Part shown: positions 1,708 to 54,690 of the stretch, piece by piece
Layout of the letters: each line of letters begins with the position of its first letter
How positions within the stretch are numbered: position 1 is the stretch's first letter
Origin: Euborellia annulipes
Lineage: Eukaryota > Arthropoda > Insecta > Dermaptera > Anisolabididae
Direction: 5' to 3'
Length of the DNA stretch: 64,000 nucleotides
Assembly (NCBI GenBank): GCA_023213315.1
Contig: JAKCPI010026167.1
Coordinates: forward strand, 62,001-126,000
The notes under the pieces: generated by a model
The model's input: only the letters and a program-made list of their open reading frames with translations
Told to the model about the DNA's origin: nothing
The model's database searches: none
Program-made: the position numbers and the translations under genes

Positions 1708-1851
1708 AAACTCAAAAAAACTGGAGCTCCCCGCCGCAGCCCTGATGTCAATTGGACGGCTTCTCAGCCAAAACCAAATGCGACCCTTGCTTATGCACAG
1801 TCAAAGGAAGCAAAGATTGAACGAGTCAGGTCCTGCTTAAGTTTGCAAAGC
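1708..1851 (-). other. candidate non-coding exon (minus strand)
   Basis: This is a 144-nt block, GC-rich at one end. On the minus strand a T-rich tract ending CTCTTGCAG is followed by GCTTTGCAAAC, and the block ends at a textbook donor GTGAGTAC. Stops occur in all three minus frames (TAA, TAA and TGA), so it is not an internal coding exon. It is probably a UTR exon or part of a non-coding RNA that includes the blocks at 829-930 and 449-476. Confidence 0.35.
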
Positions 1852-1938
1852 CTGCAAGAGAAAAAAAAAATAGTATAAATTAAACCCATGGCCAAGTGGA
1901 GTGTAATTCTTTTCTAATTTATTTATAAATAATAATTT

Positions 1939-2612: not shown

Positions 2613-2617
2613 TTATG

Positions 2618-2733
2618 CCTGGACCCCTAATAGATAAATTATTTAAGTCAAAGTCTTAAATGGCCTGAGTTGCCTAAAAGACTGTGTGAGTGTGAGTGAG
2701 AAAAACGTGTGAATGTTTAAAAAAAAAAAAATT
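2618..2733 (+). mobile_element. SINE-A, 5'-truncated copy
   Basis: It starts at the internal GCCTGGACCCC motif and runs through TATGGCCTGAG-like, GTGAGTGTGAGTG and AAAAACGTGTGAATG to a poly-A tail. It abuts the end of the X element. The tRNA-like head is absent. Confidence 0.65.
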
Positions 2734-3126
2734 TATTATTATTGAAAATTTTCTCTAGTTTTATAATCTAAAGCCTTTAAGAAACAAATCATTTATTCTA
2801 TATTGGATTTATATATTTGTTGTGTGTTTGTGTGAGTATAAATCTTCTCTCTTATCAAAGATAAAAAAAAATAACTTTTAAAAAAATATTTTCTAACGTT
2901 TAAAAATATTAATGAATTCGAGAGAAGATCAACACAGGTTTATCTTATGGATAATAAGAAAAAAAATAATTTTTTTTTAATAACAGACCATTCCCCCTCT
3001 GTAAATCTAGGAACATATATAATAATAATAATTAATATTCGAAACGTTCGTTTTTTAGAAGAATAATTTAAAAAGAAAAAATATTCATTTTAAATCATTT
3101 GAAAAAAAAAAAAGAATATTATTTAC

Positions 3127-3283
3127 CTTTAATAAGATGTTCAAAGGGGTTGGCTGGGCTGTGACGGGGTGAGTTTAATAATTATTCACTTAAAATAGAG
3201 TGAGCATGTTGCCTAAAGGCCAGGCGCTGCGACTCCAGGCCCGTCTAGCACTCGACTGAAGGCCCTTTGGCTCTCTCTCGACT
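3127..3283 (-). other. candidate first exon or promoter of a minus-strand transcript
   Basis: This GC-rich island ends, on the minus strand, in TTAAAG before the donor GTAAATAA. Its other end contains TCAGTC, the arthropod initiator consensus, near 3283. No TATA box is visible. With the blocks at 1708-1851, 829-930 and 449-476 it suggests a transcript running leftward, divergent from Osiris gene 1. It has no sustained ORF. Confidence 0.3.
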
Positions 3284-3675
3284 GACTCTCTTTAGAAAAG
3301 AATCCTAATAACACTTCCCATTTGAGTAAAAGACAAAAAAATACTTTTTACTATTAATTTAACTTTATTTATACAACGAAAAATATATCGACAGATGTTT
3401 TAAAATATTCAGAGTAATTTCTAAAATATTTCCACTCTTAATCAAACCAACCCTTTAAATAAATAAAATAATTTCTATTTGAATTTTTTTTTTTACTTCA
3501 TTTGTGATTAGAATAAAATAATTAAATCAAGTGAAGAGTTTCAGATGCGTATGTATGTTGGGTAGCCCTTCACCAGAGGGTTGAAATAATTATGAGAGGA
3601 GGGGTTCACGGTTTATTTATTTTTTTTTAATATTAAATAACTCATTTGCTTCTGTCAATCGTAATTGGGAATTAA

Positions 3676-3812
3676 AAAATCTGGTGATGTTGGTCGCACA
3701 GCACACAACCATCTCTTACCTTTGGTAATTGAAAGTTGTGTTCTGTGCTTTTCACACCAGATTTTTTCTGTAGACATACATTATATTTAGTTTCCGCCGA
3801 TATATTAGAAAA
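3676..3812 (-). mobile_element. family X terminal hairpin fragment
   Basis: It contains AATCTGGTG...CACACCAGATTTTT with the inner CATCTCTTACCTTTGGTAATTG loop, followed by the X motif TTTAGTTTCCGCCGATAT. Only the hairpin end of a reversed copy remains. Confidence 0.7.
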
Positions 3813-4757
3813 AAATTATATTTTAATATACTATTATTATACTGTGAAAAATATGTATATTATGATTTTAATCATACAAAAATATTAATGTTAATTAATT
3901 TGAATTTTTTTTTTCTTATGTCTTACAATAGTGTCTAAATATAAACACAGAATAGTTGAATAGTTTGAATTCGGAATTAAATAATCTAAAATTATTTTTA
4001 TTAGTTTTTTGATGTACACAAGACCAGGAGGATTATTATTATTTTTTTTAAGTCGAAATTTTTACTTTATTTATTTATTAATTAATTATAAATAATTATA
4101 ATTTAAATGAGTTTTGTCGTTGCTCAGGTTTAGTCTAAAGACCCTTTGTCGGGGGGAGGGAGGAGAGTGAACCCCCTTCCAAAGTATCTTTACCTATGAG
4201 CCATGGGTCAAGGGCAATTATAATTAAAATGAGCATTAAATAAATTTAAACATTAATATATTAATAAAAAAAAAGAATATTACATCTCAAATAAATTTTA
4301 TAACTTGTTTAACTCATTATCTAAAAAAATGAGTTATTTATTTAGTTAAATAAATATGAATATTAAATAAGATAATTGATTTAGAAAAAAAAAACAATTT
4401 GCATATGATGAGTACGATTTCCTTTTTCCGTCAATCACTCAACGATTAATGATTTCTATTAAAAATAAGAAAAAATATGAAAATGAGTTTGTTACATCTG
4501 GCACATTAATTTTCTATTATGACTTAAGGCTTTGTTTCGAAAGTGATAGCCTGAAGAAAGTAGATATATGTGGAAGGGGGTTCTTATTTTGTCAGGGAAA
4601 GTTTGCTGATGTAGAGATGTACATAGTCTGCGGGGGCGGAGAGAGTGAAAAAGAAATACAAAGTAGGGGATCTGATCTCCACCTCTCCTTGCAGCATCCT
4701 AGGAAAAAAAAGTGCCGTCGTCGCCGCCGTTTTGACCGTCAAAATCCAGCGCTTGGG
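3813..4757. other. AT-rich upstream region of Osiris gene 1
   Basis: It is mostly AT-rich with a diverged SINE-B-like stretch near 4130-4215. From about 4560 the base composition rises in G+C toward the promoter. An open frame at 4449-4760 on the plus strand shows no recognisable domain and lies where a promoter is expected, so it is not called a gene. Confidence 0.4.
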
Positions 4758-4790
4758 TAAAAAGTGTATCGACCCGAGACGGATTCAGAT
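4758..4790 (+). promoter_or_regulatory. core promoter of Osiris gene 1
   Basis: TAAAAAG at 4758-4764 is a TATA-like box. TCAGAT at 4785-4790 fits the initiator, with the probable start at A4787, 29 bp downstream. GGTAC at +28 is a near match to a DPE. The 5' UTR would be only 22 nt. The same arrangement precedes gene 2, which strengthens the inference. Confidence 0.45.
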
Positions 4791-4812
4791 GTGCACTAGC
4801 AGTCCAAGATGA
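4789..4812 (+). other. upstream ORF overlapping the gene 1 start
   Basis: ATG at 4789 opens seven codons and ends at TGA 4810-4812, overlapping the main ATG as ATGA. If transcription starts at 4787 this ATG is almost at the cap and would be skipped. If it starts further upstream, the uORF could limit translation or allow re-initiation. Confidence 0.3.
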
Positions 4813-5193
4813 CGGTACCAAGAAGCTGGTCCATGCTGATTTGGATGATGGTGTCTTCAGGTGTTTGTTCGGCGCAATGGTTCCGGTGGACGGATACCGG
4901 TGGCGGAACCTTAGGCTATTATTACACAGCGGCGCCTGTGCCTCGTTTTTATCAGTATTATGCCAATATTAATGGTGAGTTATCAACAAGCACAATGCCA
5001 ACAACGACGACGATGACAACGACAACGACGGAGTCCGTTGTTGGCGAGAAGGAAAATAATTGGTCCCCGACAGCCGAAGCCAGGATGATTGAAGAAATGT
5101 TTGAAGACGAGGAAGAGGAAGAGGACAACCCTCCCGAAATAGACAAACAAAATCAAGAAGAGCAAATAGAGGAGAATGCATTACAAAAGCAAG
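4809..5193 (+). CDS. Osiris-family protein (gene 1), exon 1
   Basis: This exon encodes 128 residues plus one base of the next codon. It begins with a signal peptide (hydrophobic about residues 8-22, likely cleaved after VCSA). Next comes a Tyr-rich stretch (about 30-55: GYYYTAAPVPRFYQYY), a Thr run (about 62-75), and an acidic Glu/Asp/Gln-rich segment to the exon end. The donor is AAG before GTAAGC, phase 1, and joins exon 2 at 22671 in frame. The predicted protein has 195 residues, short for Osiris proteins. The usual N-terminal two-cysteine motif is absent from this exon, so an internal exon could be missing. Osiris proteins are secretory-pathway or membrane proteins linked to cuticle and trachea in insects; the role here is inferred from family only. 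Confidence 0.75.
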
Positions 5194-5543
5194 GTAAGCA
5201 TTAAATTTAATTATAAATTTGCCAATCTAACATTTGCATAGTTTGATTCAATAAAATTTTTTTTAATGAATGAATGAAATAAAATGAAAGTTTTTTTTTC
5301 GTAAAAATAAGAATTTATTTTTTAGGCAAGTATAATATTCCATTTTTCCAATCTAAGCATTTCGTAGCCCCGAAAGTTTTTTCACCTCTTGCACCCCTCC
5401 ACTCTCCAACCTTATTACTAAATATTACTATTACGATCATCCTGAGTTTTCAAAATAATAATAAAAAAAAAAAAAAAAAACTAAATTAATTAATGAATAA
5501 AATAAAATTTTTTATCTACAATACATGCTGTGTGTTTAATGTA

Positions 5544-5744
5544 CAGTGAGGGTCAATATTAAGTCCCACTTATGTGATTTCTACATGTGATTATTTCATT
5601 GTTTTTATAAAAGAAAATGAAAATCTTTATTGGAAATTTTCTAGGTTTGAACCATGAAAGTTTCCATTAAAAAATATATAATATTTTTTTAAAACCAGTG
5701 AAAGTAGAAAACGCATGGTTGGGACTTAATATTGTCCCTCACTG
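5544..5744. mobile_element. Tc1/mariner-type MITE
   Basis: The termini are CAGTGAGGGTCAATATTAAG and its near-perfect reverse complement (CTTAATATTGTCCCTCACTG), flanked by TA at 5542-5543 and 5745-5746. It is 201 bp and non-coding. The TA target and CAGT-type end fit the IS630/Tc1/mariner superfamily. Confidence 0.8.
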
Positions 5745-5890
5745 TACCATGAAATTAACTGCTTTACTCCATAGAAGCCCCCCCCCATTTTTATATTCAT
5801 TTATTTAATTTTAATCTATTTTATTTTTTTCTAATAAGGTCATTTTGATTTCAGGTTTAATGAATATAGACTTATGTTTTCGAATTCGCC

Positions 5891-6110
5891 CAGGGGCGGA
5901 TTAATGCAATTTTGTCGGGGGGGGGATTTATTTAAGGAGTTTGTCGGCATCTATGCCCATTTAGACCCCTTTCCTATTTAACAAATTCAATTGAAATTAA
6001 AGAGCGGAAATCATAATTTCTTTAGATTACTAGTTTTTATAACTTTTTGAATTTCTTCTCGGAGGGGGAGGGGGATTGACCCCATCGCCCCCCCCTTTAA
6101 TCCGCCCCTG
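5891..6110. mobile_element. MITE with 14-bp perfect TIRs
   Basis: CAGGGGCGGATTAA and TTAATCCGCCCCTG bound a 220-bp non-coding unit with G-run and C-run subterminal tracts. A SINE-B fragment lies inside (about 5935-6000). A possible CGCC direct repeat flanks it. The end sequence resembles hAT-type MITEs of family Y. Confidence 0.7.
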
Positions 6111-6278
6111 CGCCCATCCGATATTCAACACGGATTGACCATACTTGTCAATCACAATTTTGCGAATTTAATCTTCCAGCCCTTAGATCTCTTCTGATAA
6201 TATTTGATAGAATTTCTCTTATTATTTAAAATATATTCATATAATAATTGTTTTGATTGTTTGTTATATAAATTTATT

Positions 6279-6434
6279 TAGGTCTTTTTCGGTATCAGAA
6301 GCCATTTAGACCCTTTCTCTATTTATTTAGCCAATTCAATTGAAATAAATTTTTGTCGCTTTAGACGGGATGCGAACCCCTGACCTCAAACACAAGAGGA
6401 AGGATCAATACCAACTGTGCTATGGCCCTGGAGC
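6279..6434 (-). mobile_element. SINE-B, near full copy
   Basis: Read on the minus strand it has a tRNA-like head with a B-box-like motif (GGGGTTCGCATCCCGTC), then TTTATTTCAATTGAATTGG, and ends in the signature CCGAAAAAGACC. The same family is at 10132-10925 (split), 26812-26938 and 35405-35532. Confidence 0.65.
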
Positions 6435-6458
6435 CTGTTTGTTATATTTTAAAGTTAT

Positions 6459-7226
6459 TACTTTCTCTTACCTATATATATGTTAATATATAGAAAGAGA
6501 AAGTATTGGATTCATGCCGAAAATTCGATGTCGAGATTTTGATGGATATATATGTTTTGAGGTCCCCTGAATCCAAAAAAGTGGTTTCCGTGACTGATCT
6601 GTCTGTCTGTCTGTTTGTGTGTGTGAACAAAATATCTCTAGATCGAAAAGAGCTAGGAGGTTGAAATTTTATATTAAAATTCAAAAATGAATTATTTTTT
6701 AGTTGTTCTTTAAAATGTATATTCTTATTTTGCTCTCAAAATTCTTTGAAGCACACTTTACTCTTGTACTTCATAGGAAGATAGGATAAATGGTTGCCAT
6801 GATAACAAAATATAAATATTTTCCCATGTTTATAAATTTATGGCCCCCGAGTTTGGCGTGAGGTGAGGCCTCCCTCCTATACCAAACGTCGCGGGTGGAC
6901 CCAAGCAGTCGATGATTTTATTTAAGCATTTGGATCCAGATGGTAAATAGAAATGCCTCAACCCCAAATTGATTTATTAATAAACGGTTATTCAAAGTTT
7001 ATATGGCCTAAGATGAAAAGATGGGAAGTGTGTGTAGTGGAGTGGAATGAGAAAAAGTGAATTAAAAAAAAAAAAAAAAAATTTACATCTTGAATTCTAA
7101 AATATTGGCGGAAAATGAATATATGTCGACACAAAAAATCTGGTGAGACAAGCACAGAACACAACTTTCGATTGCCGAAGGTAAGAGAAAGTTGTGTACT
7201 GTGCGACCATCATACCAGATTTTTTT
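6459..7226 (+). mobile_element. family X element interrupted by SINE-A
   Basis: It starts with ACTTTCTCTTACC and ends with the CAGATTTTTTT hairpin. At 6840-7073 a diverged SINE-A (ATACCAAACGTCGCGGGT head, poly-A tail) is inserted, with AAATTTA repeated at both junctions. This nesting shows the SINE arrived after the X copy. Confidence 0.75.
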
Positions 7227-7283
7227 CAAACTAGAGCCTACGGTTACCGGTTTAAAATTAATTTAAAAAAAATTCCCTTTTTC

Positions 7284-7444
7284 TTGCTTTATTGTACTAC
7301 AATGTCGACGTTTCGGCCGATTCTTCCGGCTTTCATAAGAACATGTGTTTTGTTTACCTCGAGCTTAAAGGGACAAACAAAAGACCCTGTTAAAGGACGG
7401 AAGAATCGGCCGAAACGTCGACATTGTTATTCAATAAAGCAAGA
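7284..7444. repeat. foldback element with GAAACGTCGAC arms
   Basis: The arms TTGCTTTATTG...AATGTCGACGTTTCGGCCG and their reverse complement flank about 75 bp. Each arm carries GGCCGAAACGTCGAC, the GAAACGTC half of a hammerhead core, but the CTGANGA half reads CGGAAGA and stem II is missing. It is therefore classed as a degenerate relative of the ribozyme foldbacks. Confidence 0.6.
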
Positions 7445-7624
7445 AAATGTTTATCTTCGTTTTGCTTCGGATTTCTTGATCTCCTCATTATTTTAATTAT
7501 ACAATACATTCAGCCACTACTCCACACAATTAAAGTTTTTTGTTTGTTCGGGGTGTCCCTTTGCGACATTTCCCATGACTCAGAACCAAATCAATCATTT
7601 ATTTAAAAATGTTCACATTTGCAG

Positions 7625-7657
7625 TCAGCGAGGTTCGATTCATTGCAAGGCAGAAGG
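7625..7657 (+). other. possible 33-nt phase-1 microexon of gene 1
   Basis: CACATTTGCAG precedes the block and GTAAAC follows it. Its length is a multiple of three, and it reads through in frame (VSEVRFIARQK) when placed between exons 1 and 2 of gene 1. Chance occurrence is quite possible in a 17-kb intron. Only a transcript would settle it. Confidence 0.15.
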
Positions 7658-8499
7658 GTAAACAAGTATTTTTAAATAATGATTATTTAATCAGTGAGGT
7701 GAATCCAAATCCATTGAATCCGAGGCTTTTATGGGTATAATTAAAAAAAAAATTGTATCTGCGGGCAAAATGGCTGAGCGGATATTCAGGGATAAAGATT
7801 ACAATGTAATTTCATTTATAACCTCCATCTAGCATTTCGATTCTAGATTGATTCCATTCACAGGACCGAAACAGCGTATTTGTAATTCGCCAAGAAGGGG
7901 TTCTTGAATATACCCAAGTATAATTGTGGATAACTATTTTAAATATAGGGAGTAAGAGATTTTGTTAATTGAACGATGAAAACTTGTAAATTCTCGATTT
8001 GACTCAAAAATCGTCAAAGAAAATGACAAGTTTATCTTGAAGATAGCTCTAGGAAAGAAATCTGAATGACGAAAAAAAAACAAATAATTTAATAATCTCA
8101 ATATGTCTGTATGGCAAAAAAAAAATCGAGGTTAGAATTATAAAAAATATTTTTAATAAGGTAGATTATTATCTAGTCTAGTAATAAAAAAATATTTCTC
8201 AAGTTATTATTTTTTTTAGTAATTACAAAATTACTGCAGTGGAATCATTATTGAAAAAGTTTTAATTTTTTCTATTTGAAAATCTAATTATTTTGTGACG
8301 ATAAATATAAGTCAAGTATTTTCAAAAAAAATCTGGTGTGATGGTTGCACATCACACATCTTTCTCTTACCTTCGGTAATCGAAAGTTCTGTTCTGTGCT
8401 TGTCACACCAGATTTTTTGTGTCGACATATGATTAGTTTCCGACAGTACGGCACATTCGAATTTCAAGATATAAAATATATAAGTATATGGGTTCATAT

Positions 8500-8651
8500 C
8501 AGTGGGGGATCCAGAGGTGTTTCTCGGGGGGGGGGGGGGGGTAATCTAGTGTGACTGGTCCCACAGCACATAATTTTTTCTAAAAAAAGTATTTTTTTCA
8601 AATCTCGGAGAGGGTAATTACACCCTTTACCCCCCCCTGTATTCGCCCTTG
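8500..8651. mobile_element. hAT-type MITE (family Y)
   Basis: The left end is CAGTGGGGGATCCAGAGG, the right end is GTATTCGCCCTTG, and the perfect 8-bp target duplication GTTCATAT lies at 8492-8499 and 8652-8659. It is 152 bp, internally deleted relative to the copies at 38112-38396 and 63276-63546. Confidence 0.8.
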
Positions 8652-8683
8652 GTTCATATTTTCATATTCATATTTTGTTACGC

Positions 8684-8940
8684 CCACGGGGGGGGGGGGG
8701 GGGGGTGGGGGGCCACCCCCATACCCCAAACCCCGGGGGTTCTGCCCCCGGGCGCTCCGGTTATTTTTTTTTCACCCTCTGGGAAACAGATTGATAAAAT
8801 CAAAGCCCCCTATATATAAAATCATAAATAACGTTATCTAAATTCTATATGGCCTGGCTGCCGGGGGAGGGGGGGGGGGTGGGGGGGGGGGGGGGGGGGG
8901 GGAGGAAAAAAAAAAAAGGAAAAAAAAAAAAAAAAAAAAA
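8684..8940. repeat. G-run and C-run rich repeat with SINE-A tail
   Basis: It contains very long G runs (about 8691-8706, and 8863-8903 almost uninterrupted), a CCCCCGGG-type inverted segment, a SINE-A 3' piece around 8808-8860 (CCCCCTATATATAAAATC, ATATGGCCTGGCTGCCG) and an A run. The G runs are quadruplex-prone, and their lengths are probably unreliable in the assembly. Confidence 0.5.
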
Positions 8941-9454
8941 AATATTTTGTTACCATAGCAACCATTTCTCCTATCTTTCCTATGAAGTACAAGAGTAAAG
9001 TGGTCTTCAGAAGATTTCAATGGCAGATCAAATTAGATTCGAATTAGAATATACATTTTAAAGAGCATCTAAAACATAAGTGATTTTTTAATTTTATTCA
9101 AAATCGTGTTTGTAGCAAATTTTGAGAAAATCGAAAAAAACTGAAAAAGTACATCAGTAAAGTACTAATACTTTTTGGCCGATTTTGTTCAAAAGCTTCT
9201 CGTGACGTGCCAGGGGGGTGCCTTTCTTAAATCTAAAATTTAAACCTCATAGCTCTTTTGTTTTTTGAGATATTTTGTTTACAGACAGACCATGTTGCGA
9301 AAACAACTTTTTTGGACTCAGGGGATCCCAAAACGTGTATATCCATCAAAATCACGACATCGAATTTTTGACATGAATCCAATACTTTCTCTCTATATAC
9401 ATAAGTAAGAGAAAGTAAAAAAAAAAAAAAAACAGAAACAGTAATATATTTTTT

Positions 9455-9600
9455 GTTCAAAAGTGTCTGAGACCATATAAATATTAAACGATACTTATTT
9501 ATATTAATTAAGAAATAAAGTATCCAAATGATTTAAATATTCTTCGCATTGTCTGGGATCCGAACCAATTTCCCTTGGCTCTTAAGGTTACTTATTGACA
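9455..9600 (-). mobile_element. SINE-A, diverged head and body
   Basis: It is read in reverse: GACCATATAAATATTAAACG, ATCCAAATGATTTAAAT, and CTGGGATCCGAACCAATTTCCC (degenerate B box). It is an old copy without poly-A. Confidence 0.5.
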
Positions 9601-10204
9601 ATGTCTTCAGATTTTCGGTCACCAGGTGGGTGGAGGGGGGTAGTAATAATATGTGAAAAAAAAAAGGAAATTGCGTCTTTCATCATTGAAAGGCAAATAA
9701 ACATAAATTACAAATGTAAATATTGCCAATAACGGTTAACCAACGATATTTATTTAAATTACCGATAGTACCTTATAAATTTAGATCATTATTTTAGTAA
9801 ATATTATTGAAAGGAGGAATTGAATAATTGACTCTAGGCGACTTATCTCTGCTCCTAAGGGCATTATTTTTGTTTTTTCGGTAACTGAGATAGTTTATAC
9901 AATTAAGATAAATAGAACCATCTAAAGTTAGACAATTATCAATTCATACATTTCTTCAATTTTATAGTCAATATAGAACAAAAAAGTTCTGAGAATGCTT
10001 ATAGTATAGTAGTTAAGTAATTTTATAAATATGCTGTTAGTTAGCATCGGAAGCCAAAATAATAGGCCTACTATCCGCCGCAAATAAAATCATTTCTTCG
10101 AAACTTAATATATTTTTTTTTTTTTATTTGTCTAAGGTCTTTTTCGGCATCTGAGGACATTTAGACTCCAGTCCCTATTTATTTCAATTTTATAGAATTA
10201 AATT

Positions 10205-10868
10205 TTTTCTTTCTTGAGAGTGGAGAAGTGCCTGTGATTGACGGCGAACAATGGTAGGAGGTGTCAGCAAGGAAGATGTGTTTCTACATCAATGAAACGT
10301 TTCGGTCCAAATGTATTCGACTATCATCAGACATCCGGGAGCTGTCATGTGTGAATATACAATATAAATCATATATCATATCGCCTGCTGAGAATCATAG
10401 TGACGAATGTCTGAAAATTTAATTTTTGGGTTAAGCTCACCAAACTTTGTTAAAACATGTTCTCTTTTGAGTGCCAAAGTCGCGTTTCCATTCTTTGCTA
10501 TTGGTTCTGGCCTATTCATTTGTTGCCCGGATATTTAAATGTATACAAGTATGCTTACCCACATAGCACTGCAACCAAAAAGCGGACATTTAGACGTCGA
10601 AGGGACGATGCTGCAACTTTGGGACATCGCAGAACGTCCCTGCGGCGTCGAAATGTCCGATTTTTGGTTGCAGTGCTATGTGGGTATAAAACTTTCAAAC
10701 GCCTTTTCTGGAATTGTTTTATTTCGGACTTTCGCCACTCAACATTCTCAGCAGGCGATATGTGGATTTGTTAAAAATTTTAAAAATGTGCTATTCGGCC
10801 AATCACAGGGCGTAGAAACCTTTGAAGTAGAGACACCTCTTCCTGTCCGCAACTTCGTGTCATTATTC
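10205..10868. repeat. 660-bp nested foldback element
   Basis: Several inverted pairs are nested in order: CCTGTGATTG (10231) with CCAATCACAGG (10799), GAGGTGTC with GACACCTC, and TATCGCCTGCTGAGAAT (10379) with its perfect complement (10744). The central hairpin has about 56-nt arms at 10558-10684. AATTTTTT at both junctions may be the target duplication. Open frames on both strands of the hairpin are side effects of the palindrome. Confidence 0.65.
10291..10337 (-). ncRNA. degenerate hammerhead-like motif
   Basis: On the minus strand CTGATGA (10324-10330) is followed by 20 nt and GAAACGTT (10296-10303). Stem II is poor (GTC/GAC plus scattered pairs) and stem I is about 4 bp with a mismatch. 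The core residues are kept but folding is doubtful. Confidence 0.25.
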
Positions 10869-11273
10869 GGATCATAATTTTTTTTCGCCTGGGACGGGAC
10901 GCGAACCCTCGATCTTTGACACCAAAAGATATTCTTTTTTTTTTTAATAATTTATTTATTATAAATTACCTAGCTTAGCCTGACGGGGACCACCACTTTA
11001 GATAGGGAAAAGTGGAGAAGAGTGCGATCTACCCACCCTGCTTGGGTACGGGGGAAGAAAGAACAAGAAGAAAATAATTATAAAATACTATTACTAAAAT
11101 CTTATTATTTACGTTCACTCAGCCGAAGAGTCAAGCTTGATTGGTCATTATATTGTTTTAAACATCTTTATTCAGTCTTTGTTTTATTAATAGCTTTTTT
11201 TTGTTAACTATCTTTTGTTAGGTTAAATTAAATTAAATTATTTTTAAGAAAATAATTTAATAAATTAATTAGA

Positions 11274-11395
11274 GCCCCCAAGCCTTGGTGTAGTGGTTAG
11301 AGGGCTGGCCATTCGTACCAAGGGTTGCGGGTTCGCATCCCGTCCCATGCGACAAAAATGTATTTAAATGTATTAAAAAGTAATTTATATAAAAA
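11274..11395 (+). mobile_element. SINE-B head
   Basis: CTTGGTGTAGTGGTTAGAGG (A-box-like) and GGGTTCGCATCCCGT (B-box-like) are followed by GCGACAAAAATGTATTTAAA. This is a forward copy with diverged 3' part. It is not a functional tRNA: there is no acceptor-stem pairing. Confidence 0.6.
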
Positions 11396-12240
11396 TAGAA
11401 AATTTCGGCTAATCATATTTTTGAAAATGAAAACACATAATATACAGGCCGCTCCACAAGTGCCTCATAAGCTCAAGAGTGGAGCGTTGAGCCTAATCAA
11501 CCAAAAAAATATTTTAATAAATTAATCATCTTTGTTTAATACAACTTAAGGTGAAAAGCTAAGATAACACATCCGATGGCTAAGCATTTCGGTTGCCTAA
11601 GCTCAAGGCTACACATAAGGCGTCAACTATTCCAGTATCCAAGATAATAATATTATTTTTATCTTCTCGGCATGTTTGGTCATATAACCTTTAAACGATA
11701 CATATTTATATTAATTAGTAAACGTGATAGTGACAAAAAGGTCTAAATAACAAAACTAAGAAAAAAATATCAAGTAGAAAGAGGTTTCTATTATCTTGAT
11801 CTAATAAAAATTTTACCTAGAGCTGCAAGAAGTTTTGGGTTGTCTGGATTAGACTATCAATAGCTATGAACCGTAAATAATAAATGAATAAATAATAATA
11901 ATAAATAAATGATAAAGGTATGATCAAGAATATTTAAGCGGGGAGTAAACAAGTTGCACTGAAGATAAGCAACGCCCTCGGATACTGGATAAAACATAAC
12001 ATTAACAATGAAAAAAAAATTATTTTGTATTGTTACTAAAGGTTGTAACGTTTGCTTTAATTTGAATTCCTATTACAATTACCTCTGTAATGATTATTGT
12101 GGTATGAAACCAGGAACACGCTTGGAATGTCAGGAAACATTTGCAAATAGTTTCAAACTAATAATTGCTTGTTTATTGTTAAATGCTTGGTTATTAAGAC
12201 TGAAGGAAGAGAAAATTACAAGGAAAAATAAATGCTCTTA

Positions 12241-12871
12241 AGGCGGAATAGGACCGAAGATGTTACGCAGGTTTTTCTCGATAAGAGGGCGTTGTGTGTC
12301 ATAAAAAGTATGCCCAAAAAATCAAGTAATTAAAAAAATTGCCAAGAGATGTCAGAATGGTAGCTAATAATATTTAATGCATTTGGTTAATTTTCATTGA
12401 TCTTATAACAATAAATACTTTATAAATGTTATTTATAATATATTATGTATCTTTTATAAAAGCATAAAAATATATAAATATAGGCCAGATATAAGCTATT
12501 AGGGGGTCAGCTGTTAGACTAGCTTGCCATCTATTGCAAGAATGCTGAACTAATTTGACAGTTGAATTTTAAATAAATCATCTAAGCTTATTTTAAAAAT
12601 TTCTTAATTAATATGTGATTAATAATAACAATAAATTCATTTTTAAATTTAAAAAAAAATTAAAGATTATTGGGACAGAAGGTTTTCTATATTGGCTTGA
12701 TAACAAAAAAAATTAATTTCCTTAATCTTTTTATAAGTCATTAAAAAAATTATCGATGTCCCAATAATCTCTTATGAGTTTAATTCATTAAAAAAAAACC
12801 GCATTGAAAAATTTCTTATAATAGTCTAGTTTTTTTTTAAAGTACGTTTAGACGTCGCTCCTGAACCCCCT
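12241..12871 (+). mobile_element. family Z element (TA-flanked, about 630 bp)
   Basis: It ends in TCGCTCCTGAACCCCCTT, the complement of the left-end consensus AAGGGGG...GGAGCGA seen at 56201. The body shares GTATGCCCAAAAAATCAAG, CAGAATGGTAGCTAATA and AGATTATTGGGACAGA with copies at 18221, 41953 and 56201. It is non-coding; its left end is diverged. Confidence 0.75.
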
Positions 12872-13611
12872 TAAAAAATGGAAGCGAGAATAGCCAAAAT
12901 TGGAGGCGGCGAATATTTAAATTGACAAATGACATACTTTTTTATTTTAAATAATTATTTTAAATAACAATTCTAAAAAGAAACGATTTCTGGAATCTCC
13001 TTTCACTAGATAAGTATATTGAAATTTTTATTTATGATCTCTGATTAGAAATAACATTAATAATTCATCACAATATATTGAATATATAAAAACAGGTTAT
13101 GGCCCTAAAATTAACAGTTAAACAGCTTCTTAAAGAAAAAAAAAAGAAAATCTGTTTGATGATTTGAGTCAATAATCAATGATCCGGTTCAATTAACACA
13201 AAATTTAAAAATTAAAAGAGAACATAATTTTTTTTTTTGTTTGTCATTAATGTTTCCATTTTGTTCAAAGGATTTTATTCGCTATTAAAAATGATTTATG
13301 TCAGGCACATATTGGGAAAATTTTTCGGCTCACTGTATTCTTTAAGATAAAGAAACATTATCTTGTGAGCTTTTATTTTTCAAATACTTATTATTATTTT
13401 ATTAATTATTTTTTGTGAAACTTAAGCTTGTGCAAATTTTGTATGTTTAGAGAGAAAAAAAAATTAATTCCTTGCTAAAAATTCAATTATATTTTTATAA
13501 TAAAATTCATCTTTCTCTCCTGGAGGTATATGGACTAAAAGAAAAAAAAATCAATATAGAGAGATGAGAAATAAATTAAAATTAAAAATAAATAGCCTCT
13601 CAGAGAGGCAG

Positions 13612-13866
13612 AGCGAGGGGGTGCAAAGGGGGGTCTTCAGGCCTCGGGCGCTACTCACAAAGGGGCGCTAAATGGTCCGCAAAACAAAAAATTGCTGGAT
13701 AATTTTTATTTTTATTATAATTGATTTCCGGAAAATATATTTTAAATTTAGTGTAATATAATAATTTTGGATATTTTACATATAATATATGGTTTTCGAA
13801 TGTGGGGGGGGGGGGGGCGCTAAAAAGGTATTGTACCCCGAGCGCAAGTTAAGCTCGCTACGCCAC
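13612..13866. mobile_element. probable MITE with G-rich ends
   Basis: GAGCGAGGGGGTGCAAAGGG at the left and CTCGCTACGCCACTGG at the right enclose paired GGGCGCTA motifs. The CGCTACGCCACTG end resembles the MITEs at 43415 and 44544. The boundaries are approximate. Confidence 0.5.
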
Positions 13867-14782
13867 TGGCCTCTCTTACGATTTGAGATGAACTCTAAAG
13901 AGGATATGAGACGAGAAATTGGGAGAATTTTATAAAATCGTCAAATACAATTTTTATTTATTTGCTTTTAGGGTTAGCATCAGCTTCTAGGCTATCTTGC
14001 ACCATTTTTTTATAATAAACTAATATAAAACCTTTGTTACAAGAAAATAATATGAATATTATTAGTATAAGAAAGTCAAATGCAATCCCGAAAGAGATTA
14101 AATAAATTATAGATGCCTGCTTTTTACATTACCCAAATAAAAAATTTCCTATTATGATAATTTCATAAAGATAAATAGTTTATTTCTCTGGGAAAAGTTC
14201 GTGAGATACAATCCCTTTTTATAAGATCTACTATCTATCTCTTCATTAAACAAAATTACAAGATATAATCAGACAAGTGCCCAAAGGGTTATAAAGGGTT
14301 GAGAAAAAAATTTTAATTTGTCTCACAAGAAGCCTTCTTTTGAATAATTTATTACCTAGTATTTTTAAATTTGAATTTTGTTTCGAGAGAAAGTAAAATT
14401 AAATTCACCTCAAAACATAATAATATTACATTTAGTATTCGCAAAATCATCATACTAGCTATAATATGTTTAAAAGAAGTTTTTCGAGTTTGTTTTATCA
14501 TTCAAATATTTACCCAAATATTATCTTAGCCTTGTTTTTATCTTATTGAAAAATATTTTGTACTAAAAGGAGAAATATTTAAATAAACTTATTCTAAAAA
14601 AAAAAAAAAAAAAACTTAATATTTCAACCAAAAAGTATTTATTTACCCCAGAAATTAAATGCTTAGCCAATTTCACTTTGAGGAGGGTCTAAAAGTTTAT
14701 TTAGTTGATTTTTATATATTCCACTACCGTATCCTCTTTTAAATCTCGAATCTATGCCTGTTTAAATTTTGTTTTTTTCCTT

Positions 14783-15438
14783 TTACTTTCTCTTAGCTCT
14801 ATATATATGTTAATATATAGAGAGAGAGAAAGTATTGGATTCATGTCCAAAATTCGATGTCGAGATTTTGATGGATATACACGTTTAGAAGTCCCGTGAA
14901 TCTAAAAAAGTGGTTTGGTTTGTGTTGCACAGCACACAACTTTCTCTTACCAATGGTAATCGCAAGTGGTGTTCTGTGCTTGTAACACCAGATTTTTTTG
15001 TGTCGACATATATTTAGTTTCCGCCGATATTTTAGATAAAAATTAATTGAGTTTTGAATTTTGATCAAAATCGTTGAAGAGAATTTTGAGAAAATCGAAA
15101 AAAACTGAAATAGTACATCAGTAAAGTATTAATATTTTTTGACCGATTTTGTTTAAAAGCTTATTTTCACGTCCTAGGAGGGTGCTTAATTTAAATATAA
15201 AATTTCAACCTCCTAGCTCAATTTCTTCATGCTTTAAATTGAACCCAGACACACCCACAACAGACAGACAGACAGACCATGTCGTGAAAATCACTTTTTT
15301 GATTCAAGGGACCTCAAAACGTGTATATCCATAAAAAAAGAATTTTTGACATGAATTCAATACTTTCTCTCTATATACTGTATATGTATATTAACATACA
15401 GTATAGGCCTACATATAGGTAAGAGAAAGTAAAATGGG
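14783..15438. mobile_element. mosaic of two family X copies
   Basis: A forward start (14783-14920, ACTTTCTCTTAGC hairpin) is fused to a reversed copy (14921-15438) that begins with the CACACAACTTTCTCTTACC hairpin and ends AGAGAAAGTAAAA. The fusion could be recombination between opposite copies. The end hairpin is extended by an ACAGTATAGGCCTACA stretch. Confidence 0.65.
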
Positions 15439-24533: not shown

Positions 24534-25374
24534 TTGATTTAAAAACGTGCATTTCCATAAAGAAAGCGATGTTGTCGATATAATTATACGTGAATTGAAT
24601 TTTTGGTTGAGAATAAGGAGATTGTTGGGCCGGGATTTTATAAGTGCAAATTTTTACTAGCTCTTTTTCTTTAAAAACCTGCATAATTATACGGAGGGAA
24701 TTTCGAGGCTCAAAATTCGCAACCAGTGAGCTCTCGGCGGCTTTACTTTTAAAATTCTTTTTAATGTTTCTTTAAACAAATAAAGGAGAAATTAAAAATA
24801 AATTATATTTTCTTAATAATATATAATTAATAAAAGGGTCATGCGAGAAACGTCGTTCGATTGTATCATAATAAAATATTAAGAGCGGATAAGTCGGCTG
24901 ATCCAGCTAATAACTAAAATTATCGGGTTAACCATGTATGAATAATGGAAGTATTAATTAAATTAAAAAATTTACAAACACATTACAAATTAAAAAAAAA
25001 ATATTTTCTTCAATAAATAGGCCATGTTTTTTTTTATTTGTCCTTCTTTTTGGGTGAAAAAAATGAATATAAACGAGAGTTCTTGTTTGAAAATTATAAT
25101 AATAAAATCATACTCACGTACTCTGAGAAAGAGAGAAAAAAAAATCTCCAATTAGACTTTTTGTTTTTAAATTTTAATAAACTTTTTATTATAAAAATAA
25201 ATATTTAATGAATTCCATTTCCTTTTAAATTTAATTAGAAAAAATATAAAAAATGCTAATTAATTTATTTCCTTAATCAAACTAAGTGCAAATTCTATCC
25301 TTATTAAAATGTTTCGGTCTCTGATTGCTTCATTATCAGGAGCAAATGATGAAAAAAATTTTCTTGTATTATCT

Positions 25375-26394
25375 GGACCGTTTATTTTGAAAGTGGTGTA
25401 AGTCCATTTTCTATTGTTTCGAGAAAATGAAAGGTTTGCATATCTGTTAATTTAAAAATCTAGGCAAATGATATGAAATCGGTGAATGTTTCTATTTCTT
25501 TATCAGTGTCTAATTTAGTTATATAAAATTGTTTTAGGCGAATTTGACTAAACTAATATATAATTACAAGCTGCCAATGGACTTACACCACTTTCAAAAT
25601 TAACCAACTGTAAACTTCGTTGAATTTCAATTTTGAAAAATCAAATATTACTCAAAATATACTTCATATTAATTCAATATTCTTTACAAATAATGACACG
25701 ATATAAAATAGAAGTAGTATTTTTAATTTTAGACGTTAATTACATTGTTAAAATTACAAGATATTCGTAGTATTTACTTATCCTCTGTATATGGATGGTA
25801 GAGTGTTGAAATATTTATGATGTACCGGAAGAATTAACTGCTTGATATCTTTATATTAATAAGTAACCTATTCTCGTAACCAGTGGCGTCATTTCAACTT
25901 TTTCTTAGAGGGGGAGGGGCAAACTTTTTTTTCAATTTCTCACTTCAATTTTCTTTACAAATAGCTATCTCAAATTTGGCCAAAAGGTATTTAATTAAAT
26001 TAATTTTTTAATTTTATACAGTTTCGTAGATATATTTTATTTACGTAGAATAATACCTAGGGAGGAGAGGGGGGGGGGGGGGCAAATACCCTTCCCCACC
26101 TACAAATGACGCCTCTGTTAGTAATTCTTAACAAGTTTATTAACAAATGCACAATAACGGACAACCATCTGCTAAGCTACCTACCTCAAATTGGACTTAC
26201 ACCACTTTCATAATCAACGATTATGCAACTTCTTTTACCGACCAATTTTCAATTGTACAAAACATGGGAATTTTTTAAGGGATTTGCCACTAGCTAGTTA
26301 TACATAGAAAATTTACATTAAATTAAGTATGAATTATGTGATATCTCAGATTTTTTAAAAATTGGACTTACACCACTTTCAAAATAAACGGTCC
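25375..26394. mobile_element. family V element with internal insertions
   Basis: The termini GGACCGTTTATTTTGAAAGT and ACTTTCAAAATAAACGGTCC bound 1.02 kb. Further V-type ends at about 25575-25610 and 26188-26215 show nested or duplicated parts. A separate MITE sits at 25881-26117. It is non-coding. Confidence 0.65.
25881..26117. mobile_element. MITE with CAGTGGCGTCATTT ends
   Basis: CAGTGGCGTCATTT and AAATGACGCCTCTG are complementary with one mismatch. G-rich subterminal runs are present and the flanking 8-mers are only partly alike. It is probably hAT-type. Confidence 0.65.
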
Positions 26395-35404: not shown

Positions 35405-35532
35405 CCTGTAAAAGCAGCGGGTTCGCATCCCTCCTGCGACAAAAAATGTATTTAAATTGGATTGGCTACCAATCAATTGAAATAAATATGGCCATAAATG
35501 CCGAAAAAGTCTTTAAATAAAAAAAAAAAAAG
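35405..35532 (+). mobile_element. SINE-B, forward 3' half
   Basis: GCGGGTTCGCATCCCTCC, GCGACAAAAAATGTATTTAAA, AATCAATTGAAATAAATATGG, TGCCGAAAAAGTC and a poly-A tail. The 5' head is partial. Confidence 0.65.
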
Positions 35533-36067
35533 AATTTTATCTAAAGATGTCAAAAGTTAGATTCAAATTACAGTTAAGTTTTACCACTCCAATAATTGGT
35601 AGTTCTATTAGTGGTGTATTCAGTTCAATTTCAATAACAAGGTAAAAAAATTACTAATAAGAGAACTACTTTAAAAAAAATGAAAAATTACTATAAAACC
35701 AATAAAAGAAAAAAATTCTAAAACAGCTAAGGATAAATATACGCATAATTATATTGATATATTTCTTTAAAAAAAATAATCCCTCCTCCGTCCTGTAGTT
35801 TAGGTATTAGAATGGAGGAGAAAGATATTTTTTATACCTATAATAGACTGGTAAGGATATAAATTCCAATGATTATTAAAGCTTTTGTGATCTATTATTA
35901 TTATGGGAATTTTTAATGGTTTATTAATTGGACCGTTTATTTTGAAAGTGGCGTAAGTCCATTTTCTATTGTAAAAGGAGCAGGAGGTGTGTTTACTCGA
36001 TTGATTTTGCAGATGGAGGTGCAGAGATGAAATAATTTATGAAAAAATTATATCGAAGATTTTTATT

Positions 36068-36130
36068 GACAAGACAACTGTGATTGCAATTTTAACAGTT
36101 TCGGTCTGAAGAGACCATCATCAGGCCTGA
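36068..36130 (-). ncRNA. hammerhead-like ribozyme motif (left arm)
   Basis: It is the mirror copy of the motif at 36241-36301: CTGATGA at 36118-36124, stem II GGTCT/AGACC, then GAAAC and stem III ACTGT/ACAGT followed by T. As with its partner, one extra base sits between the CTGATGA core and stem II. Confidence 0.45.
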
Positions 36131-36240
36131 GAAAGATTACATAAAAAAGTGAGTCAGCACACAGCAATACCAAAAAAATTAATCACTTCATCATTTTTTG
36201 GTATTGCTGTGTGCTGACTCACTTTTTTATGTAATCTTTC

Positions 36241-36301
36241 TCAGGCCTGATGATGGTCTCTTCAGACCGAAACTGTTAAAATTGCAATCACAGTTGTCTT
36301 G
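36241..36301 (+). ncRNA. hammerhead-like ribozyme motif (right arm)
   Basis: The order is: stem I (AGGC/GTCT, 4 bp) before CTGATGA at 36247-36253; stem II GGTCT-CTTC-AGACC; GAAA at 36269-36272; stem III ACTGT/ACAGT (36272-36276 with 36290-36294) around a 13-nt loop; cleavage-site triplet GTT ending at 36295. This is type I topology with all invariant core bases. The extra T36254 between the core and stem II is a deviation that may lower or abolish activity. Confidence 0.45.
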
Positions 36302-37001
36302 TCAATAAAAATCCTCGATATAATTTTTTCATAAATTATTTCATCTCTGCACCTCCATCTGCAAAATCAATCGAGTAACACACCTCCTGCTCTTTTTACA
36401 ATATCGTTTCTACAGTCATTTTCTATTGTTTCGAGAAAATGAAAGGTTAACATTTCTGTTTATTAAAAAATCTATTTACAGACGATTCAATTTTACAAAA
36501 CATGAGAATTTTTTAAGAAATTTTCCACTAGCTAGTTATACATAGAAAATTTACATTAATTTAAGCATAAATTATGTTATATCTCATTAAAAAAAAATGA
36601 ACTTACACCACTTTCAAAATAAACGGTCCAATTATTTATTAAAAATATAAGCACTGTATAACGTTTGAACTGCTTTTTCGTTTCCAAGTAGTGTGCACTT
36701 AATTCCAGTGTTGTCCAGATTAAGAATTAGACTACTTTTATTTTAGCTTGAAAAAATCCCTTTGAAAGAGAGAATGTTTCCTATAGAATTTGTTTAATCT
36801 AATTTTTATCTGCAAGACTTTCACGTGTCTATTCATTTTTACCTGTCCAAAGGCGATCATAAAAGTAAGCCACGAATCCACTAACGCATATAAAATTAGA
36901 TGTGAGACTTAGGCACGTGTTGTCTAGATGTCCTCGTCTTGTCTGTCTGCTTGCTTGTTTTCCGAATAGAAATCGGGTCCATTTTGGTTCATGAAGATTA
37001 A

Positions 37002-51147: not shown

Positions 51148-51589
51148 TAAAAATATGAACTAAGGCTTCTAAGGACTATTAAATAATGTGAAAAATGAAA
51201 AAAAAAAAAAAAAAATTAGGTGTTGGCTGTGTCTTCTACACAGCCGGTGGCTTTTTAACGTGACAACGTCTTTTTGCTTGATTTCAAAAAAATTTTTTTC
51301 TCTTAGCTATATTGAAATATAAAGAGAGAAAAGTATTGTTTTTTTTACTAGTAGTTTGTTTTCATAAATAAACATGTGCAAACATTTTCATTGAAACAAT
51401 AGATGACAGGTGTGGCTTTTTTTTTATCCATTACTAGCTGCGGTAGGGTTGCCTTCGGCAACCCTACCCCGCTAGGCCCTGGCGGGCGGCGTCTCGGGAT
51501 ATGACTAAGAGTTGTCCAGATAAATGTATTTTAATTAATTATGAAAAAGAGTTTTTATTTTTTATTTTAAATATTTGATTAATATATTT

Positions 51590-53405
51590 TTCAATTATTT
51601 ACACCCTAAGAAAGCAACATTTTAAATTTTATTAAAAACGAATGAAAAATAAATTTCAGGGGGGGGTCAGGGGGGGTGATTGAACTTTCTGATGTCTAAA
51701 ATACCATTTTTCAATTATTTACACCCTAAGAAAGCGTCATTTTAAATTTTATTAAAATCGAATGAAAAATAAATTTTAGGGGGGGTCAGGGGGGTGATTG
51801 AACTTTCTGATGTCTAAAATACCATTTTTCAATTATTTACACCCTAAGAAAGCAACATTTTAAATTTTATTAAAATCGAATGAAAAATAAATTTAGGGGG
51901 GTCAGGGGGTGATTGAACTTTCTGATGTCTAAAATACCATTTTTCAATTATTTACACCCTAAGAAAGCGTCATTTTAAATTTTATTAAAATCGAATGAAA
52001 AATAAATTTCAGGGGGGTCAGGGGGGTGATTGAACTTTCTGATGTCTAAAATACCATTTTTCAATTATTTACACCCTAAGAAAGCATCATTTTAAATTTT
52101 ATTAAAATCGAATGAAAAATAAATTTCAGGGGGGTCAGGGGGTGATTGAACTTTCTGATGTCTAAAATACCATTTTTCAATTATTTACACCCTAAGAAAG
52201 CGTCATTTTAAATTTTATTAAAATCGAATGAAAAATAAATTTCAGGGGGGTCAGGGGGTGATTGAACTTTCTGATGTCTAAAATACCATTTTTCAATTAT
52301 TTACACCCTAAGAAAGCGTCATTTTAAATTTTATTAAAATCGAATGAAAAATAAATTTTAGGGGGGGTCAGGGGGGTGATTGAACTTTCTGATGTCTAAA
52401 ATACCATTTTTCAATTATTTACACCCTAAGAAAGCAACATTTTAAATTTTATTAAAATCGAATGAAAAATAAATTTCAGGGGGGGGTCAGGGGGGTGTTT
52501 GAACTTTCTGATGTCTAAAATACCATTTTTCAATTATTTACACCCTAAGAAAGCAACATTTTAAATTTTATTAAAATCGAATGAAAAATAAATTTCAGGG
52601 GGGTCAGGGGGGTGATTGAACTTTCTGATGTCTAAAATACCATTTTTCAATTATTTACACCCTAAGAAAGCGTCATTTTAAATTTTATTAAAATCGATTG
52701 AAAAATAAATTTCATGGGGGGTCAGGGGGGTGTTTGAACTTTCTGATGTCTAAAATACCATTTTTCAATTATTTACACCCTAAGAAAGCAACATTTTAAA
52801 TTTTATTAAAATCGATTGAAAAATAAATTTCATGGGGGGTCAGGGGGGTGTTTGAACTTTCTGATGTCTAAAATACCATTTTTCAATTATTTACACCCTA
52901 AGAAAGCAACATTTTAAATTTTATTAAAATCGAATGAAAAATAAATTTCAGGGGGGGTCAGGGGGGTGATTGAACTTTCTGATGTCTAAAATACCATTTT
53001 TCAATTATTTACACCCTAAGAAAGCGTCATTTTAAATTTTATTAAAATCGATTGAAAAATAAATTTCAGGGGGGGTCAGGGGGTGTTTGAACTTTCTGAT
53101 GTCTAAAATACCATTTTTCAATTATTTACACCCTAAGAAAGCAACATTTTAAATTTTATTAAAATCGAATGAAAAATAAATTTCAGGGGGGTCAGGGGGG
53201 TGATTGAACTTTCTGATGTCTAAAATACCATTTTTCAATTATTTACACCCTAAGAAAGCAACATTTTAAATTTTATTAAAATCGAATGAAAAATAAATTT
53301 CAGGGGGGTCAGGGGGGTGATTGAACTTTCTGATGTCTAAAATACCATTTTTCAATTATTTACACCCTAAGAAAGCGTCATTTTAAATTTTATTAAAATC
53401 GAATG
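51590..53405 (+). repeat. tandem array, about 118-bp unit, about 15 units
   Basis: The unit contains CAATTATTTACACCCTAAG, AAAGCRWCATTTTAAATTTT, AAAATCGAATGAAAAATAAA, GGGGGTCAGGGGG and GAACTTTCTGATGTC. Sixteen CAATTATTTACACCC landmarks are spaced 114-120 bp. Variation is mainly in G-run length and two alternative forms (GCAACA or GCGTCA), which alternate irregularly. Confidence 0.9.
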
Positions 53406-53721
53406 AAAAATAAAAAAAATAAAATTTTAGGGGGGGGGGTGGGGGCGCAGAGCGGAAAAATCTTTTCAAATGTCGAATTGTTAGGGGGAGGAAGAGTTTT
53501 TATTTTTCATTTTAAAGATTTGATAAATATATTTTTCATAAAGCGAGTTAGATCCTGTTTTCCAATGCTTTGCTATGGGGTAATAGATAACCCCCAAAAA
53601 GGGGGGGGTTCCCTACCCCTAATTCGATATAATGATAGCCTAAAACCACCCCCGGAAAATTCCCTACCCATTAAAAAAAACTCCATGAAAATCGGTCCAG
53701 TAGTTTCGGAGTCTATGCGTT

Positions 53722-53794: not shown

Positions 53795-53847
53795 GATTGT
53801 CTTTTATATAATAGTATAGATATAGAAGAGCGACTTATGCTTAAAAA

Positions 53848-54690
53848 GTGAGGTTTTTCGAGAAAAAAACTAATTTCAGCGATAATTACTCGGGATTTTT
53901 TTTATTTATTCTATTAGAGGTTATCCTTCTGCACCAAATGACATCTCATTTAATCAGATCTGATTAGCCGTTCGGAATCTACAGGGGTTTAAAATTTCGA
54001 AAAACGAAATCCCGCCGAGTCCTCTCATGCGGTAAAATGACCTCAAATCAAAAAAAAGAAAAAAACACCCCGGGGTATTGAACCACTCTTTCTAAAACTA
54101 TATTTAGATTTAATGTAGCTTTTATGGTCAAGTAGCTATGCGTTGCACAAGTAGGGCTATTTTTCGATATTTTTTTGCCTAAAAAATGAGGTTTTTCGAG
54201 AAAAAAACCAATTTTGGAGTTAATTATTCGGGATTTTTTTATTTATTCTATTAGAGGTTATCCTTCTGCACCAAATGACATCTCATTTAATCAGATCTGA
54301 TTAGCTGTTCGGAATCTACAGGGGTTTAAATTTTCGAAAAACGAAATCCCGCCGAGTGCTCTCATGCGGTAAAATGACGTCATATCAAAAAAAAGAAAAA
54401 AACACCCCGGGGTATTGAACCACTCTTTCTAAAACTATATTTAGATTTAATATAGCTTTTATGGTCAAGTCGCTATGCGTTGCACAAGTAGGGCTATTTT
54501 TCGATATTTTTTTGCCTAAAAAATGAGGTTTTTCGAGAAAAAAAACAATTTTGGAGTTAATTATTCGGGATTTTTTTATTTATTCTATTAGAGGTTATCT
54601 TTCTGCACCAAATGACATCTAATTTAATCAGATCTGATTAGCCGTTCGGAATCTACAGGGGTTTAAAATTTCAAATTAGAATTTACCGCA
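53848..54690 (+). repeat. tandem repeat, about 337-bp unit, 2.5 copies
   Basis: GAGGTTTTTCGAGAAAAAAA, CACCAAATGACATCTCATTT, CGTTCGGAATCTACAGGGG and AACACCCCGGGGTATTGAAC recur at a 337-bp step (53848, about 54187, about 54524). The units are highly similar, so the duplication is recent. Confidence 0.8.

Follow-up and report, generated by a model that had tools for sequence, protein, structure and literature searches.

Head-to-head palindromes with hammerhead-like motifs in Euborellia annulipes are very probably ORF-less derivatives of Penelope-like elements

The palindrome at positions 35967-36403 of the window (the whole 64,000-nt stretch of Euborellia annulipes DNA that was analysed) reads as one terminal unit in two 3'-anchored copies, inverted relative to each other and joined at their inner ends; the unit is a pLTR that carries a minimal hammerhead motif of type I. 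Judged from its sequence, the family to which it belongs is very probably a high-copy, ORF-less derivative of Penelope-like elements (PLEs). Taken as a whole, we regard the palindrome as the probable outcome of a PLE-kind insertion in which two 3'-anchored arms arose by two-sided priming. The PLE-type reading follows from features shared with PLEs, namely inverted "pLTRs", a tail on one side only and short duplications, and from a PLE of the same genome with a hammerhead of the same layout. What is new here is the high-copy, ORF-less form of head-to-head PLE ends; our searches of open-access literature showed no report of such a family. The original prediction had gone further and suggested an undescribed class of element, a claim that fails because published PLE precedents exist both for head-to-head pLTRs and for hammerheads (PMC3846280, PMC7229834, PMC6431247).

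The window palindrome and its insertion site

The near-perfect palindrome is real. Its arms (35993-36177 and 36194-36378), separated by 16 nt, show 99% complementarity, its outer segments (35967-35993 and 36377-36403) show 96%, and the 437 nt folded as single-stranded DNA reached -247.8 kcal/mol compared with a shuffle mean of -41.6 (z -41), with 0/100 shuffles folding as well. That it is a mobile insertion in a MITE is borne out by a target duplication and by a MITE copy at 25367-25440 that holds the uninterrupted target. The original prediction was right about this insertion and wrong about its 12-bp duplication: the duplication is 13 bp, CATTTTCTATTGT, and 0/500 shuffles had one equally long. 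Because it lies at 35960-35972 and 36417-36429, the insert is bounded at 35973-36416. On the right side, the 13 nt beyond the palindrome end as first noted are a deleted tail; on the left, TATTGT, the outermost part of the arm as first noted, falls within the duplicated target. The features are as follows.

35925-36634, unstranded: host MITE receiving the insert, with inverted repeats of ~46 bp at its ends (35925-35970 and 36589-36634); sister copies found by BLAST
35960-35972, forward strand: left target-site duplication, CATTTTCTATTGT; empty site at 25367-25440
35973-36177, reverse strand: left arm, tailless, starting at site B; sense runs outward (leftward) to the family end ACAATA
36072-36128, reverse strand: hammerhead-like motif of the left arm; CTGATGA at 36118-36124, predicted cut after 36076
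36178-36193, unstranded: hinge joining both arms, 16 nt, non-palindromic
36194-36403, forward strand: right arm; sense runs outward (rightward)
36243-36299, forward strand: hammerhead-like motif of the right arm; CTGATGA at 36247-36253, predicted cut after 36295; parts: stem I AGGC/GTCT, CTGATGA, extra T, stem II, GAA, stem III, GTT
36404-36416, forward strand: the family's ~26-nt tail (site A end) in internally deleted form, on the right arm only
36417-36429, forward strand: right target-site duplication, CATTTTCTATTGT
25367-25440, forward strand: sister MITE copy with empty target

Snap-back copying straight through the left junction was considered, since TATTGT/ACAATA spans target and arm. 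We dropped it because ACAATA is the family's own arm end, which makes TATTGT a six-base overlap of target and element.

Elsewhere in the window, we observed tandem arrays at 51586-53414 (118/353-bp units, 96-97% match) and 53838-54672 (337-bp units, 2.5 copies). A protein search with the frame at 4803-5201 gave no match, nor did Pfam with two forward frames in 1-14998, and a scan of viral contigs for the MITE ends found none.

One-sided tails and target duplications across the family

We searched the 903 Mb assembly (25949 contigs) for further copies. The arm search returned 753 candidates, of which 40 were scored and yielded 60 matches. The arm end occurred at 271 sites with at most 1 mismatch and the tail at 143 sites with at most 2 mismatches, and the reversed control gave 0 in each case. 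The palindrome is accordingly multicopy, and single-copy occurrence, the outcome that the original prediction had named as speaking against it, is therefore removed. Pairs were counted among 100 listed of the 271 arm-end sites and 100 listed of the 143 tail sites. The listed arm-end sites formed 23 adjacent pairs at most 3 kb apart, 162-730 bp long and on many contigs, three of which (C12762-C12764) resemble copies of one locus; all 23 were head-to-head and 0/23 direct, so that the terminal pLTRs have a head-to-head form. Set against the listed tails, 13 of these pairs had one tail, 10 had none and 0 had two. The DNA between the arms was, in the copies examined, mostly an inward continuation of one or both arms, with an additional interruption in L014. 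Judged by frame length, the element holds no ORF with reverse transcriptase and GIY-YIG, as no stop-free frame exceeded 87 aa among 26 two-armed copies; we therefore describe the family as PLE-type and non-autonomous.

Read in sense, each arm extends outward from 5' to 3' and finishes at or close to ...CTCCTTTTACAATA, beyond which lies an optional tail of ~26 nt, TCATACTCGGGCTGTTTCTACCGTCG and variants. To compare the outer ends we used only loci with both arms reaching them, a sample that leaves out copies with a damaged outer end. With same-flank rows dropped, it held 29 rows, or 27 distinct copies after merging L029/L030 and L057/L060; loci such as L033, L034, L046-L051, L055, L056 and L059 fall outside this classification. 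Tail status was called by eye and then rescored by alignment score to the tail. One pLTR carried the short tail at its 3' end in 24 of the 27 copies, three copies (L014, L053 and L057/L060) had no tail, and none had two; in the one-tailed copies the tailed side scored 19-52 and the opposite side no more than 13. Among the 100 listed tail sites, C23269 (G000:C23269:44030-44458), with two outward-facing tails 0.4 kb apart, is the sole candidate for a two-tailed copy.

We scored as a duplication any match of 8 bp or more, without mismatch, between a stretch 0-4 nt away from the tailless end and one 18-34 nt away from the tail-side arm end. Such a repeat was present in 17/24 one-tailed copies compared with 21/552 (3.8%) cross-copy flank pairings. 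The window copy, with a duplication that overlaps its arm, brings the count to eighteen, and a clear duplication was not found in 6/24 (L007, L017, L022, L035, L043 and L044). Duplication length across copies was 8-13 bp, and some duplications (L003, L042 and L045) are simple AT runs. The family thus combines short AT-rich target duplications with 5' truncation, seen as variable inner ends.

Long inverted repeats are prone to assembly error, and we asked whether the palindrome could be such an artefact. The target duplication and empty site of the window copy, the single orientation of the 23 listed adjacent pairs (162-730 bp, on many contigs), the duplications in 17/24 copies against 3.8% in the cross-copy control and the 271 arm-end sites led us to reject this explanation, to which we attach next to no probability.

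A transposase-mobilised DNA element of the foldback/MITE kind, which ends in long inverted repeats, would share those repeats with the family, as well as target duplications and high copy number. However, such elements have symmetric termini and a fixed duplication length, whereas the family has asymmetric termini with one tail, duplications of 8-13 bp, unequal arms that shrink to 17 nt or are absent, and single-arm inserts. We rejected this highly improbable origin on account of the asymmetric ends.

Hammerhead-like motifs and Penelope-like elements of the same genome

Each arm carries, once and facing outward, CTGATGA, an extra T, a 5-bp stem II (GGTCT/AGACC), GAAA, a stem III of 5 bp closed by a 13-nt loop, and GTT; stem I of the window motif pairs over just 4 bp. 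The two motifs, one per arm with CTGATGA, GAAA, stem III and GTT, are thus present as predicted. We searched 77 Mb of first-order Markov sequence with a descriptor that demanded stems of 4/4/3 bp or longer and permitted one extra base after CTGATGA; it gave 4 matches, or 0.007 expected per window. We aligned 50 arms (53 were found, and 3 truncated rows were left out) and observed CTGATGA in 47/50, the extra T in 50/50, GAA in 49/50 and UH in 50/50. The cleavage triplet ended in UC in 47 arms and in UU in 3, including both window arms; the window copy has GUU, and 47/50 aligned arms have GUC. At the level of the sequence motif, the family arms hold the conserved hammerhead core CUGAUGA / GAA / NUH.

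Stem pairing was standard in 96.7% of cells over 14 pairs in the aligned arms, compared with 24-40% when the alignment was slid. The original prediction had suggested comparing arms for compensatory changes: there were none, with 0 pairs altered on both sides. Letter shuffles paired as well as the real arms in 500/500 cases, and covariation within the family is therefore absent. A search for the Rfam hammerhead gave no match in the window at the curated cut-off, none at E<=10 in 35800-36700 and none for one family copy bearing GUC, and the consensus hammerhead fold (-8.8 kcal/mol) lies above the optimum (-13.4 kcal/mol). The absent compensatory changes, the pairing of shuffles, the lack of an Rfam match and the fold energy all speak for a resemblance that is dead or due to chance, without a past as a ribozyme. 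We nevertheless consider that explanation improbable, given the 0.007 matches expected per window, a core and a GUC each kept in 47/50 arms, the description of PLE hammerheads (PMC11167929), and a motif with different stem letters that was seen by eye in the pLTR of a separate PLE, L066. The motif is probably, to go by its sequence, ancestral PLE machinery of a single-arm RNA.

We predicted an RNA fold of -354.7 kcal/mol for the whole insert and of -31.6 kcal/mol for a single arm. On either strand, a transcript crossing the insert has the complementary arm upstream of the motif. It is literally true, as had been predicted, that transcripts of either strand carry a ribozyme motif; but each also carries the complementary arm, and folding as a ribozyme is doubtful because the complement is transcribed first and should catch the motif in a hairpin. 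In PAc, a Poseidon element of Anolis, the hammerhead needs protein for cleavage and is dispensable for insertion in vitro (PMC11167929). For both reasons, the paired outward motifs may be a by-product of insertion rather than a two-strand ribozyme design. The PAc ORF begins at stem II, past C3 and G8 (PMC11167929); a PAc-like ORF start would put an ATG over A9, which would explain the extra base. The ATG frame at the hammerhead in the palindrome family stops after eight codons.

Elements with coding capacity are present in the same genome. GIY-YIG gave 118 matches (150 of 710 candidates scored) with frames of up to 852 aa, and neighbouring matches at most 6 kb apart on one contig were outward in 9 cases, direct in 2 and inward in 0. 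The Penelope-type element L066 (G000:C4744:140000-144000) has 559-bp direct pLTRs that are 99.8% identical and an open 849-aa frame, and is apparently young. Its frame matched RVT_1 with 27.7 bits (E 2.7e-6), just missing the Pfam curated cut-off of 29.6, and scored above the cut-off for GIY-YIG in the genome search; when the complete frame was run against Pfam at E<=0.01, GIY-YIG was not among the matches. Each L066 pLTR reads, by eye, GGTC-CTGATGA-T-GGTCC...GGATT-GAAACC...GGTT-GACC. This hammerhead-like motif has the layout of that in the palindrome family, including the extra T after A9, with different stem letters, but the L066 pLTR aligned with the family unit only over a 39-nt stretch at 79%, in the hammerhead region. 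PLE hammerheads were reportedly described in a 2014 paper.

A second element, L067 (G000:C4577:109800-117200), aligned with its own complement over 6473 bp (459-6921) at 99.3%. It forms a head-to-head PLE palindrome of ~6.5 kb, in which each strand has RVT_1 frames and one side is apparently extended by about 70 nt. Together with the outward GIY-YIG neighbours, L067 suggests that the head-to-head arrangement is common for PLEs here. We found no autonomous PLE with the family's own pLTR. When the 118 GIY-YIG matches were compared with the 100 listed tail sites, C16247 was the only contig holding both, with the sites ~20 kb apart, and the stretch examined on C3433, where two tails lie 3.6 kb apart, contained no element bearing a reverse transcriptase.

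Two further observations concern possible relatives. At L055/L061 (C23790) and L056/L062 (C11440), an internally deleted unit directly follows a frame of 95-103 aa, a possible remnant of a coding parent; Pfam matches to the L055/L061 frame were all sub-threshold. At 10262-10334 of the window (reverse strand) we noted a second motif, CTGATGATAGTC...GACCGAAAC, which shares the extra T. It sits in a retroposon-like unit with an A-rich tail resembling one at 35405-35530, forms by eye a three-way junction without a U16.1/H17 site and gave no Rfam hammerhead match; it is possibly a decayed PLE hammerhead.

Origin of the head-to-head arms

The closest published structures are Penelope inserts whose two ends are pLTRs in inverted, head-to-head orientation, one of them followed by a 31-bp tail, with duplications of 8-10 bp; pLTRs of Adineta vaga Pen2a and others are about 180-218 bp, with palindromes at the inverted junction (PMC3846280). 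Other accounts describe pLTRs as "either direct or inverted" (PMC5537684), inverted pLTRs with 3' extensions (PMC8969392), and hammerheads in PLEs or their terminal repeats (PMC7229834, PMC6431247). The family resembles the Penelope inserts in its head-to-head pLTRs, one-sided tail and short duplications. However, the examples given in PMC3846280 enclose an ORF or a host gene, whereas the family consists of two ends only and is high in copy number; it also has a hammerhead-like motif, a word with 0 occurrences in that paper. Metazoan retrozymes, as described in PMC7229834, are likewise small and non-autonomous with a type I hammerhead and low G+C, but have direct tandem repeats that give rise to circular RNAs. 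We rejected retrozyme identity on finding no direct tandems among the 23 listed adjacent pairs.

PAc offers a biochemical parallel. Both target strands were cut, at AT-rich sites, and extended in vitro; two internal start sites of reverse transcription define the tail, with no difference between strands, and the 2024 study called the steps after cutting and extension of both strands not yet validated (PMC11167929). PAc compares with the family in its hammerhead, which lies at the pLTR/ORF junction (start codon after G8), in its tail, which two reverse-transcription starts define, and in its AT-rich targets. Unlike the family, it has tandem direct pLTRs with an ORF, and the main text reports no palindromic product.

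We propose that a PLE-type reverse transcriptase/GIY-YIG endonuclease acting in trans would cut an AT-rich target on both strands, with 8-13 bp between the two cuts. Going by the termini, each target 3' end would then prime its own cDNA on element RNA, one cDNA starting at site A (the tail end) and the other at site B (after ACAATA). The two cDNAs would end at separate inner points and be joined there, in the middle of the insert. The result would be the structure that we observed: head-to-head arms, often unequal, with one tail and a target duplication.

Several small inserts bear on the two starting points. Read by eye, L018 is a single arm with the tail and a 10-bp duplication, ACATCAATCG, and L023 is a single arm without the tail and a 10-bp duplication, AAAACAGTTT; in both cases 0/500 shuffles had one as long. 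The existence of single-arm inserts with and without the tail suggests that both outer ends behave as independent starting points. L010 pairs, by eye, an arm of ~220 nt with one of 17 nt that carries the tail, flanked by TAAATCAAA, and L065 is by eye a 39-bp insert in which a 17-nt arm is joined to 22 nt of tail, flanked by TATATGTC; duplications as long as each of these arose in 15/500 shuffles.

The inner ends were measurable in 21 pairs, among which that of L010 is an estimate; the complex or interrupted loci L014, L038, L044, L045, L052, L053 and L057/L060 were left out. On the unit, the two inner ends differed by no more than 40 nt in 9 pairs and by more than 40 nt in 12, and in the latter the longer arm was tailed in 4 and tailless in 8. 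Shuffling the partners gave a mean of 3.7 near-equal pairs (permutation P 0.004), and the inner ends are therefore not fully independent. We also asked how closely partner arms are related. The partner was the nearest neighbour for 11/22 arms with a measured partner, which leans to palindromes being made anew at each insertion, as far as sequence kinship can indicate. Most remaining arms were about equally far from their partner and from others; L007 is the plain exception, its own arms differing by 6.8% and one of them by only 1.5% from L010.

The main alternative is self-priming, in which a cDNA or an antisense RNA folds back to be copied outward, one template giving rise to the palindrome before or during insertion. 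This is the route preferred in the Discussion of PMC3846280 (2013), which inferred self-priming on antisense RNA for rotifer Penelope and called for further experiments. The excess of near-equal arms (9/21) favours it for part of the copies, the 11/22 arms whose partner is their nearest neighbour also agree with it, and unequal arms are compatible if the fold-back primes internally. Yet a fold-back copy is expected to have the same outer end as its template, and the tail is on one arm only in 24/27 copies; the longer arm is tailed in 4 and tailless in 8; and single-arm inserts starting at site A only and at site B only both exist, one of each having been read. Because the tail is one-sided and neither kind of arm is consistently the longer, self-priming is disfavoured as the sole route, and we think it unlikely, though a serious contender. 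In preferring two-sided priming to self-priming we have modest confidence. Against this best explanation stand the strict limit of one tail per copy, which the PAc start-site data do not lead one to expect, the failure to find an autonomous PLE with the family's pLTR, the candidate two-tailed pair on C23269 and the 6/24 one-tailed copies in which a duplication is not clear.

A palindrome might also replicate as a palindrome, with a hairpin RNA that spans both arms being reverse transcribed from its tail end and inner deletions arising by skipping of the hairpin. This route accounts for exactly one tail per copy, for the 11/22 arms whose partner is not the nearest neighbour and for the kinship of L007 with L010. 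The intact tailless ends are no argument against it, because the sample was selected for such ends. Nonetheless, the partner is nearest in the other 11/22 arms, left arms do not sort with left arms (in a small sample, in which gene conversion may also have acted), and single-arm inserts of both kinds occur, including the tailless L023, all of which make replication of this sort quite improbable.

Whether the family amounts to a genome-wide record of two-sided PLE insertion, with a tail-site start at one end and an inner-site start at the other, seems to us evenly balanced. If it does, copies that have shrunk to a 17-nt arm and a 22-nt tail would be minimal products of two-sided insertion, and two-sided priming would explain the head-to-head pLTRs of PLEs generally, including those of L067, without self-priming on antisense RNA. 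An ORF-less family with hundreds of short copies, which displays both ends, the tail and the inner join together, makes the choice between two-sided priming and self-priming as origins of head-to-head PLE ends directly countable. It also carries a warning that outward pairs of "ribozymes" in palindromes may stem from insertion and not from a two-strand design.
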